A model generated the notes under the pieces. The model did no database searches, was not told where the DNA came from, and saw nothing but the letters and a program-made list of their open reading frames with translations. Both the position numbers and the translations under genes were made by a program. This document shows, piece after piece, positions 28,560 through 32,393 of a stretch of DNA of 33,694 nucleotides. Numbering within the stretch: position 1 is the stretch's first letter; each line of letters begins with the position of its first letter. The DNA comes from a virus, in the IMG/VR virus record IMGVR_UViG_3300020219_000046, positions 1-33,694 of that record; one strand, written 5' to 3'.

Positions 28560-28973
28560 TTACGGCTTGTAAACATTTGCAAAATTTGTATAGGTTAGCT
28601 TGGTCCAATGCACGATTTGCCCTTCCAGCAGCTTCGTTTTGTCTTTCTTTCGTCTGTAATTAAAATATTCTATAAATTCCTCATAATTATCAAAGCCGTC
28701 GTTTTTTGCAATTTGAGTAAGTTGTAGTTTGTTATTGATTGAAATGCCTTCGATTTTAAGGGAAACCAAATAATTATCTGCCAAGCCCTCAAAGCCAGGG
28801 GCATCAATAAACAGTATTTCAAACTTTTCGGTAGCAGTTACACAAGGCATTGCGTGGGAATGTTGAAATCGGTATCCAAGCCGGAAGGTATGTTTTTTAA
28901 TACCCGTCTGCATTTTTTGTTTAAACCCTGTTAGTTTGCCCCAGGGAAATTCTCGGGAGAAGGTTAATAGCAT
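28560..28973 (-). CDS. ASCH-domain protein
   Basis: 137 residues. The pattern MLLTFSREFPWG, then GIKKHTFRLGYRFQ (K-x-HT-x-R core), a beta barrel, and IAKNDGFDNYEEFIEYFN matches the ASCH proteins that are frequent in Bacteroidota phages. ASCH folds resemble PUA domains and bind RNA or modified nucleotides. Its role in phage infection is unknown; it lies next to a nuclease. Confidence 0.75.
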   Translation of the reverse strand: MLLTFSREFPWGKLTGFKQKMQTGIKKHTFRLGYRFQHSHAMPCVTATEKFEILFIDAPGFEGLADNYLVSLKIEGISINNKLQLTQIAKNDGFDNYEEFIEYFNYRRKKDKTKLLEGQIVHWTKLTYTNFANVYKP

Positions 28974-29115: not shown

Positions 29116-29985
29116 TTAATATTTTAGAATGTCAGAAGATAAAATATTTTCGATTGCCCGCAAAACGGCTATTTTTTTGGCAGTAAAGATTATTTTATTT
29201 TTAATAAAGTCCTCATTCGTTATAATGTCTATTTCAATGCCTATCATGGCTTCTCTTTTGCGGGCTTCCTGTGATTCATTTACCAATTTTTCGGCTTCCT
29301 GCATTAGTTCCTTTTTATCTTTGCTTGTAAGGTTTATTACACCAAGCCAAAGAAGATGATCGTAATCCCTCACCCTTACCGATTCGGGATATTTTTGAAT
29401 TTGTTGAACCCGCTTTGCAATCTGGTGCCGGATTTCTAATTGTCCTGCGGGGGTTTTCCAATACGCCTTTAATTCCTGTTCTTTTTGTACTTCCAAGCCT
29501 TGCAGTAGCTTGGAAGCTACTTCCTTTCTATATTCCTTGTAGGCGTTTAGGACGCTAGTAAGGATATTTACATTAAACTTGCCATAGTAGGTATTTAAGT
29601 CCACGCTCACCACGCCACTGGCAGCAACCCGGAAGGATTGCTTTATTTCTTCTACGCCTAAAAAAGAAAAGTATTCCAAAACCGTGAGCGTACATTCTTT
29701 CAAAAGTTCGGCATTAAGGTTGGTTGCGGAGGTGTAATTTTCGGCACAAAATTCAATTGCGGAATGAATGAGGGTTTTAACCGCTTTTTTGTCGGTAAAT
29801 TTCGCAATAGACCTATCCAAGCCCGCCGCCACAACTTCGACATATTGGCGGGTACAGCTTGTATCCCCTGCAACGGTTTCAATCAGTTTCGGACTGGTAT
29901 AGATCTGCAACTGATTTTTTAACTGATATGCCGTTATAGTTAAAGGTTGGATCGATGTCGTTGTTGGTTGGTCCGGGCTTTGCAT
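29116..29985 (-). CDS. Replication-region protein, unknown
   Basis: 289 residues from the ATG at 29985; a TTG at 30066 is also open. Overlaps the end of the initiator-like gene by 107 nt. Helical; a conserved-looking core LNTYYGKFNVNILTSVLNAY (about 160-180) is followed by a charged helix. No Walker motif, so it is not a DnaC-type ATPase. Coupling to the initiator gene suggests a helicase-loading or replication accessory role; this is inference. Confidence 0.65.
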   Translation of the reverse strand: MQSPDQPTTTSIQPLTITAYQLKNQLQIYTSPKLIETVAGDTSCTRQYVEVVAAGLDRSIAKFTDKKAVKTLIHSAIEFCAENYTSATNLNAELLKECTLTVLEYFSFLGVEEIKQSFRVAASGVVSVDLNTYYGKFNVNILTSVLNAYKEYRKEVASKLLQGLEVQKEQELKAYWKTPAGQLEIRHQIAKRVQQIQKYPESVRVRDYDHLLWLGVINLTSKDKKELMQEAEKLVNESQEARKREAMIGIEIDIITNEDFIKNKIIFTAKKIAVLRAIENILSSDILKY

Positions 29986-30715
29986 ATCCGTTTGATTTTT
30001 TTGGTTTGTAATTGTTTTGGTTTTGTCCAGCTGTGCGAATAAACCCGCGCATTTTATTAATGCCAAATGTTTTTACTGCTTGCCAGTTTCCATTTATAAC
30101 AAAATCTTTCATGACTACGTTCTTATCATTTACTGTGGGAAGCCCTTGCGCCAAAAATTCCCACTGAATTAGAAAAAAATCGGCGGTGAGAACCTTTGCG
30201 TAAATTGTCCATGCCGTCATTCTATTATCAATGTTGTCCTCAAAAAGCGGAAATTTTTTCAATTCATTTTGCACGTCGTAAATGCTTTCAAATGTGAGTG
30301 AGTGTATAGTATTATTAGTAATAGTATTTGTCGGATTTTTTTCCGAGATAGCTCGGATTTTTTTCCGAGATAGCTCGGATTTTTTTCCGACCCCTAAATC
30401 GTATTGGATATTGTTCCACATTTTCCCTTTTTCTGTTATTTGTATGCAGTCTTTTTCCGCAATTTTCCGCCATCTTATTACCCCTTTCTTAGCCAATTCC
30501 TTGTAAAGCCGATAAACCGTATCCGGGCTGTCTGTCACAATTGGAAAGTCCTCAATAAATTTATTTCTACTTGCGAAATACCAAACTTCTTGCCCTATAA
30601 AAATTGTTTCCGCCCAGGATGGGATGTCATAGCAAAAAGCAAATGCTAGCGCTTCCGTTTTATTCAAACCCCAGTTAATAGCGCTAGCCTGGTCTATAAA
30701 TATTCCGTATTTCAT
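29879..30715 (-). CDS. Replication initiator-like protein (winged helix)
   Basis: 278 residues. Residues about 15-100 form a winged-helix pattern: helices ALAFAFCYDI and DTVYRLYKELAKKGVIRWRK, then wing strands DCIQITEKGKMW. A basic linker (107-130) is encoded by three 22-bp DNA iterons. The C-terminal domain (145-278) is helical, with MRGFIRTAGQ and a disordered Lys/Pro/Asn tail. The design (DNA-binding domain, iteron-bearing linker, partner-binding C-terminus) is that of lambda O and phage replisome organisers. It is first in the replication operon and lies behind a structured leader RNA that ends in a terminator. Confidence 0.75.
   Translation of the reverse strand: MKYGIFIDQASAINWGLNKTEALAFAFCYDIPSWAETIFIGQEVWYFASRNKFIEDFPIVTDSPDTVYRLYKELAKKGVIRWRKIAEKDCIQITEKGKMWNNIQYDLGVGKKSELSRKKIRAISEKNPTNTITNNTIHSLTFESIYDVQNELKKFPLFEDNIDNRMTAWTIYAKVLTADFFLIQWEFLAQGLPTVNDKNVVMKDFVINGNWQAVKTFGINKMRGFIRTAGQNQNNYKPKKSNGYAKPGPTNNDIDPTFNYNGISVKKSVADLYQSETD
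30331..30390. repeat. Three 22-bp iterons; putative replication origin
   Basis: Plus-strand units at 30331-30352 and 30353-30374, and a 16-bp third unit at 30375-30390. Each contains the dyad TCGGA-T6-TCCGA, with CCGAGATAGCTCGG dyads across the joints. An A/T-rich stretch (30300-30330) adjoins them. The 22-bp period shifts the frame, so the three copies encode different peptides (KKSELS, RKKIRAI, SEKNP); the DNA rather than the protein is what repeats. The location inside the initiator gene parallels lambda ori. Confidence 0.75.
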
Positions 30716-30721
30716 AGGATT

Positions 30722-30829
30722 AAATTAAAAAGAAAAAGCCAGCGGTGTGGCGTATCGCTGGCTTTACGCAAGGGTGAAAAAATAACCTTTGCGATTTTAC
30801 GGCTTGCCGCCACAGCAAGCCGTAAAATT
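30722..30829 (-). ncRNA. Three-hairpin leader RNA / sRNA with predicted kissing loop
   Basis: Predicted to start near 30829 from the promoter at 30834-30864 and end after the T tract near 30725. Hairpin 1: 14-bp perfect stem (30815-30828 with 30794-30807), loop TGTGGCG. Hairpin 2: CGCAAAGG with CCTTGCG (30786-30793 with 30767-30773, one bulge). Hairpin 3: 10-bp stem (30756-30765 with 30735-30744), loop ATACGCCACAC. Loop 1 is the exact reverse complement of CGCCACA in loop 3, so a 7-bp kissing interaction is possible. Hairpin 3 plus TTTTTCTTTTT is a terminator. It may be an independent sRNA or an attenuator of the initiator gene, whose ATG is at 30715. Confidence 0.7.
30731..30765 (-). terminator. 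Rho-independent terminator of leader RNA
   Basis: Stem AAAGCCAGCG / CGCTGGCTTT, 11-nt loop, followed on the minus strand by TTTTTCTTTTT. This is the strongest T-tract terminator of the window. It stands 16-20 bp before the initiator ATG, so it must be passed for the replication operon to be expressed from the promoter at 30834. Confidence 0.8.
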
Positions 30830-30833
30830 TATA

Positions 30834-30864
30834 CAAATATATAAGATTTATTATAAAAATCCAA
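30834..30864 (-). promoter_or_regulatory. Bacteroidota-type promoter (P5)
   Basis: TTG (30864-30862), spacer GATTTTTATAATAAATCTTA (20 nt), TATATTTG (30841-30834). The spacer holds the perfect-arm dyad GATTT-TTATAA-TAAATC. The -33 element lies in the last codons of the upstream gene. Transcription should begin at the foot of hairpin 1 of the leader RNA. Confidence 0.8.
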
Positions 30865-32079: not shown

Positions 32080-32393
32080 ATCTGTTCAAAATTTCCAAGC
32101 GCCTGCACATGGTGTGCAAGTGCTGCCAATTGTTTAGAAATAATTCTCAAAGCCTCGCCTTTTATTTCTTCCAAATTTTCAAATCCACCTCCCATGTATG
32201 CCCATGAGGTTATTGGTGTACAGGAAATCCACCCTTCGTAAATTTCACCGATCGATGAATCAAATGTGTTTGCAATGCAAACACATTTTAAAGATATTTT
32301 CAAATTCATGATTGAGACTGAGTGAAATCCAGTTACTTCGCAGACCTTCCATCGAAGGGTTGGAATCGCTAATTTTTTTGTTAAATCTTCCAT
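32076..32393 (-). CDS. Hypothetical early protein
   Basis: 105 residues, beta-rich start with several Cys (KVCEVTGFHS; LKCVCIAN; WISCTPITSW) and a helical C-terminus (LRIISKQLAALAHHVQAL). No recognised family. Overlaps the next gene by ATGA. Confidence 0.65.
   Translation of the reverse strand: MEDLTKKLAIPTLRWKVCEVTGFHSVSIMNLKISLKCVCIANTFDSSIGEIYEGWISCTPITSWAYMGGGFENLEEIKGEALRIISKQLAALAHHVQALGNFEQI

Follow-up and report, generated by a model that had tools for sequence, protein, structure and literature searches.

The window analysed here, a 33,694-base virus record (IMG/VR IMGVR_UViG_3300020219_000046), carries a structured leader immediately ahead of a phage replication initiator gene, in which an intrinsic terminator has an apical loop complementary to that of a promoter-proximal hairpin. 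All scans together gave at least about 70 such leaders, with 20 distinct loop pairs among the matches listed. Many other Bacteroidota phages share this arrangement and its pairing although their letters differ completely, pointing to RNA switches for phage gene expression that form an undescribed family. The leader architecture is well supported, and we consider it moderately probable that the leader is a cis-acting transcription attenuator that heads a phage transcription unit, with a kissing helix linking its terminator to the 5' hairpin.

The long open reading frames of the window are almost all on the minus strand, on which the leader and the following gene have these parts:

30862-30864, minus strand: -33 element TTG, 20 nt upstream of the -7 box
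30834-30841, minus strand: -7 box TATATTTG, fitting TAnnTTTG
30794-30828, minus strand: hairpin H1, 14 perfect base pairs, from fold prediction
30808-30814, minus strand: loop 1 TGTGGCG, kissing partner, exact reverse complement of 7 nt in loop 3
30767-30793, minus strand: hairpin H2, with A-C mismatches on this strand, not conserved in most relatives
30735-30765, minus strand: hairpin H3, intrinsic terminator of 10 bp with the 11-nt loop ATACGCCACAC, from fold prediction
30746-30752, minus strand: loop 3 nucleotides CGCCACA, kissing partner, complementary to loop 1
30727-30737 (about), minus strand: U-tract of the terminator, after H3
29879-30715, minus strand: phage replication initiator, O-like, 278 aa, from PHROG matches and homologues

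TAnnTTTG is the consensus of the sigma-A -7 box of flavobacteria (PMC9723704). The succession given in the initial annotation, a promoter followed by a perfect 14-bp hairpin, a second hairpin and a terminator, is confirmed on the minus strand by consensus and folding, and the predicted leader RNA would be about 100-105 nt long. An intrinsic terminator is present between the promoter box and the rep gene, a feature of countertranscript attenuators. The initiator gene had been placed 16 bp downstream; its ATG (30715-30713) actually lies about 11 nt past the U-tract and 19 nt past the H3 stem. The plus strand folds slightly better (-52.7 vs -46.2 kcal/mol for the minus strand), mainly because H2 gains G-U pairs there; the minus strand is indicated as the sense strand by the promoter box and U-tract and by comparison with the relatives.

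The window leader folds with a z-score of -7.0. Loop 1 was verified as the exact reverse complement of CGCCACA in loop 3: a loop-loop match of at least 7 nt together with both hairpins and the terminator was reached by 0 of 3000 dinucleotide shuffles, and a match of 6 nt under the same hairpin and terminator rules by 4 of 3000. The leader has a descriptor score of 43 and, at a cut-off of 24, is the sole such element on either strand of the 33.7 kb; shuffling the whole window yielded 17 such elements in 200 shuffles at this cut-off.

Besides phrog_678 ('replication initiation O-like', 1.2e-5), the initiator matches two families whose function is unknown, one of them phrog_11527 (4.5e-29). Homologues were found by tblastn in Flavobacterium phage FCL-2 and in Parabacteroides phages PD691P3/P4, so that these loci were selected through the initiator and not through loop complementarity. 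The gaps upstream of their initiators, of about 125-165 nt, show the leader layout of the window, with the loop pairs CATCCAC/GTGGATG and CTACCACC/GGTGGTAG, which are unrelated to the window's letters; a 7-nt loop match was reached there by 0 and 3 of 3000 shuffles. The window leader is tied to the family by its architecture and by this homology with the FCL-2/PD691P4 initiators, and not by the strand AAAGATATT described below. The leader is absent before Proteobacterial homologues of the initiator and was not found directly before the initiator at two further loci (L007 and L273); the PD691P4 initiator, used as the query, found no viral relatives. A search for close relatives with the initiator, the terminase and a neighbour gene gave one near-identical contig (IMGVR 3300020203_000455), whose identical leader is uninformative on covariation. 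In this contig about 15 nt of the window (about 28847-28861) are replaced by about 180 nt (L003 2868-3049). The initiator gene itself holds three tandem 22-nt repeats TCGGATTTTTTTCCGAGATAGC (window 30331-30396), which recall the origin iterons inside lambda O and, on the plus strand, fold into small hairpins resembling terminators, and a near-perfect palindrome AAATGTGTTTGCATTGCAAACACATTT lies within a small ORF (window 32267-32293).

The family is defined by a TAnnTTTG-type box, H1, terminator H3, loops with at least 6 complementary pairs and an ATG within about 60 nt. All of these were found in the window and its relatives, a few members pairing partly via G-U. Pattern scans of viral contigs were built on AAAGATATT, a common strand after H1, and left at least about 30 leaders after filtering for complementarity. 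The order promoter box, 5' hairpin, terminator and ATG holds in 37 of the first 37 leaders (among the matches listed). The TAnnTTTG box stands at the equivalent place in the relatives; B40-8 has TATATTGC instead (L030 5269), which resembles the TAnnTTGY box, an alternative sigma motif of F. psychrophilum (PMC9723704). The three-hairpin layout initially described is present in the window and does not extend to the family, H2 being absent, by reading, from most relatives among the matches listed; for this reason H2 is apparently dispensable. The AAAGATATT strand, full or as a variant, follows H1 in most leaders listed, and is treated as optional since the window, L199 and L273 (a Lacinutrix MAG) are without it. 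Two roles for this strand were rejected: pairing with the promoter box, seen in one fold, would involve a box that lies upstream of the expected transcript and whose nn positions vary without compensation, and a DNA element at a fixed promoter spacing is at odds with a spacing of 24-37 nt. The genomes of phages 6H, 11b and B124-14 yielded no convincing leader, and the matches of a pattern scan of 395 Bacteroidota genomes look like chance (judged by eye, with the descriptor run on fetched loci only).

Covariation was assessed with a scan that is blind to loop 1, in which the loop 3 flanks of one group (ATATAGGT-N9-CCTATTGAT) were sought in all viral contigs. This returned 60 places, 46 of them with a leader. 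Loop 1 is in reach in 45 of the 46 and pairs with loop 3 in all 45, across four loop-3 types; the non-Watson-Crick pairs (AGTAGTGTC type, L357, L376) are G-U on the sense strand (counts and wobbles of this set were read by eye from the table). The remaining 14 places have unrelated sequence, with a longest complement of 4-5 nt. Because MAFFT misaligns the full set of leaders, covariation was counted within two groups only. In terms of paired cells, which tally sequences rather than events and are thus inflated by relatedness, the kissing helix is 100% paired both in an alignment of 12 leaders and in a second group of 7, and the whole structure of the 12 reaches 98.6%, vs 38-54% when slid by 1-3 columns. 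The compensatory changes in both loops that the initial annotation had proposed to look for are present, with double changes in 5 of 8 kissing pairs in the first group and 3 of 7 in the second, and relatives that keep the hairpins were found to keep complementarity too, with changed letters, the opposite of what the initial annotation had named as refuting. In BF766P1 one kissing pair is broken, in loop 3. Unlike pairs among the 20 distinct loop pairs mostly have 1-4 complementary nucleotides in common, and the predicted kissing duplexes range from -5.6 to -14 kcal/mol with loop penalties left out. As judged from this covariation, the pairing between the loops of the 5' hairpin and the terminator is real and evolutionarily kept.

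The geometry of the leader is nearly constant. Loop 1 and loop 3 are 38-56 nt apart in 32 of 33 leaders compared (window, 55 nt; the exception, L186, 63 nt), most commonly 43-45 nt, a spacing that recurs across groups of unrelated sequence. The ATG lies 26-62 nt past loop 3 in the 37 leaders whose downstream sequence could be read (among the matches listed), and 38-41 nt past it in 45 of 45 leaders of one group. A structured leader RNA in cis to the downstream gene, as originally suggested, is borne out, with its loop pairing kept in relatives. The genes that follow are diverse. Replication genes comprise O-like initiators, a Lin1244_N initiator (phrog_2562) and DUF1376-like genes (phrog_270, replication initiation); a DUF6291 gene with a weak primosomal-protein match, a BT4734-type primase-helicase and a DEAD helicase were also found, as were Bro-N/ANT and KilA-N regulators, a DNA methyltransferase, T5orf172/MUG113 (GIY-YIG type), CoiA and an HNH-AP2 gene (below curated cut-offs). 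In the Bacteroides phages B40-8 and BF702P1 the leader precedes antirepressor-type regulators. Within the 46-leader group, seven unrelated ORF families stand behind one leader type, and the loop type is independent of the gene. The claim that the leader lies upstream of a replication initiator therefore holds for the window, FCL-2 and PD691P3/P4 and fails as a statement about initiators in particular; unrelated genes behind the same leader type argue that the module is gene-independent. In one phage group, at L044, L128, L204, L169 and about 40 other loci, a constant leader is followed by differing genes, among them methyltransferase, CoiA-like and GIY-YIG type genes, suggestive of a locus for variable cargo. 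At L067 (483-2649) a kissing leader of its own precedes an HNH-AP2 type gene that lies just behind an apparent capsid gene.

The mechanism we propose builds on features read directly from the sequence, namely the promoter consensus, the hairpins, the terminator, the kissing complementarity with its covariation and the position of the gene start. Host RNA polymerase would start at the TAnnTTTG promoter and make H1, followed by the intrinsic terminator H3, whose apical loop would then base-pair with the H1 loop. The resulting kissing helix, of 7 bp in the window and 6-9 bp in relatives, would give the leader a closed, compact fold. Termination at H3 would release many transcripts as an RNA of about 100 nt, and readthrough into the gene, whose start lies a few nt further on, would depend on the H1-H3 complex forming or being bound; in the window phage, readthrough would set the supply of the replication initiator. 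The trigger is perhaps a reader of the AAAGATATT strand beside H1, in most relatives, or of the kissing complex itself. In this scheme we infer the transcript start and end sites, the effect of kissing on termination, the direction of that effect and the trigger. A cis-acting attenuator is favoured because it best explains the order of promoter, terminator and gene, and the same leader before unrelated genes is as expected of a gene-independent switch. Against it, termination at H3 may be constitutive and the kissing helix may do no more than stabilise the RNA; a common antiterminator structure competing with H3 was looked for and not found, and the lack of AAAGATATT in the window and the broken pair of BF766P1 would also count against it.

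The leaders might, more tentatively, represent a new class of phage riboregulator: an exact kissing helix with a promoter-proximal hairpin would control the terminator's apical loop, the loops would diversify between phages yet stay self-complementary, and the terminated leader could act in trans on like leaders only. If true, such a leader would be the phage counterpart of the copy-number and incompatibility RNAs of plasmids. A related and unlikely reading takes the terminated RNA of about 100 nt as the product itself, an sRNA that the kissing helix would lock into a stable form and that would act in trans, for instance through base-pairing to the leaders of other phage copies (as a dose sensor or for exclusion of like phages), as plasmid incompatibility RNAs do. 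A 5' hairpin, a 3' terminator and a kissing lock would indeed give a stable RNA, loop pairs differ among phages of one group while the loop 3 flanks stay, and the two leaders of one 40-kb phage (G003), with loops unlike each other, do not match. Such differences within one phage group recall plasmid incompatibility RNAs, and a trans role is kept open for this reason. However, local concentration favours intramolecular pairing, the variation lies partly in H1 as a whole rather than in the loop alone, and a cis role is favoured by the fixed place just before an ORF. The alternative raised in the initial annotation, taken as a free sRNA with no other function, has lost likelihood, since every leader with available downstream sequence is followed by an ORF that begins 26-62 nt past loop 3.

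It is quite unlikely that the kissing fold controls translation instead of termination, through the accessibility of the start region. H3 ends about 10-40 nt from the ATG, Bacteroidota are described as lacking Shine-Dalgarno sequences and using mRNA structure to tune translation (PMC6847099), and the pseudoknot switch of the ColIb-P9 repZ initiator offers a precedent (Asano and Mizobuchi 1998, as cited in PMC10724649), but a terminator-type U-rich tract after H3 would be needless for a translational switch. Antitermination of the put type, in which the nascent fold would bind RNA polymerase and make it resistant to the terminators of the operon, appears improbable: the leader is immediately promoter-proximal, gene-independent and found in phages, and HK022 putRNA likewise comprises two stem-loops in about 70 nt just downstream of an early promoter, yet here a terminator is one of the kissing partners, and kissing to a terminator is not described for putRNA in the accessible part of PMC9378689. 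A strong terminator and a hairpin with loops complementary by accident is hardly credible, for although the window by itself offers just one informative sequence, leaders recur independently with changed letters and compensatory substitutions, and this covariation refutes chance for the family.

Bacteroidota phages are abundant in the gut and in water, and the timing of their gene expression is hardly known. As a portable leader of near-fixed geometry with a freely changeable loop pair, the proposed attenuator would provide these phages with a general means of control. The cultured phages FCL-2, B40-8 and PD691P4 allow it to be tested directly, and it could serve as an orthogonal part in Bacteroides engineering.

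The earlier view that the leader belongs to no known family agrees with searches of Rfam 15, which gave no match for the window at the gathering threshold. Five loci with leaders gave only two matches up to E 5, each below the gathering threshold and lying elsewhere than in the leader, and seven more loci gave none up to E 1. No published description of such leaders was found in a search that left most subscription journals and preprints outside its scope, so an earlier description is possible. As far as we are aware, no known system couples the loop of a terminator to a promoter-proximal hairpin. Kissing loops occur in riboswitches and in the ColE1 RNAs. Terminator riboswitches with kissing loops, of the purine class and others, resemble the leader in combining a terminator with a loop-loop interaction and a single-stranded stretch that is conserved (here AAAGATATT, in most relatives). 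In the leader, by contrast, kissing engages the loop of the terminator, neither a ligand nor an extensive conserved core is known and Rfam gives no match; the only sequence conserved in most relatives listed is AAAGATATT or its variants, which the window lacks. ColE1 RNA I and RNA II are antisense partners with 7-nt kissing loops, and resemble the leader in loop length, three hairpins, a length of about 100 nt and a replication context, whereas the leader is not antisense and its complementarity lies inside one RNA. A palindromic candidate from Bacteroidetes near phage D5 and integrase domains, HMP_4078, appears in one catalogue (PMC8040213). HK022 putRNA is also a structured nascent RNA of a phage just downstream of an early promoter; it binds RNA polymerase, and no terminator or kissing loop is described in the accessible part of the source (PMC9378689). 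RNA-controlled leaders of plasmid replication initiators include pT181 attenuation and the ColIb-P9 pseudoknot (both as cited in PMC10724649). Countertranscript attenuators of the pT181/pIP501 type likewise attenuate transcription within the leader of an initiator gene (from a title cited in PMC10724649), but need antisense RNA from the opposite strand, whereas the leader here pairs within one RNA; by eye, no TAnnTTTG box was seen on the plus strand of the window just before the leader. The repZ/repA pseudoknot of ColIb-P9/IncB (named in titles cited in PMC10724649) also lies in an initiator leader, and there too a stem-loop pairs with sequence farther down its own RNA; that system differs in exerting translational control with an antisense RNA, in having no kissing to an intrinsic terminator and in belonging to plasmids of Enterobacteria. 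There the intramolecular partner is a stretch next to the rep start, whereas in the window it is the loop of the terminator.
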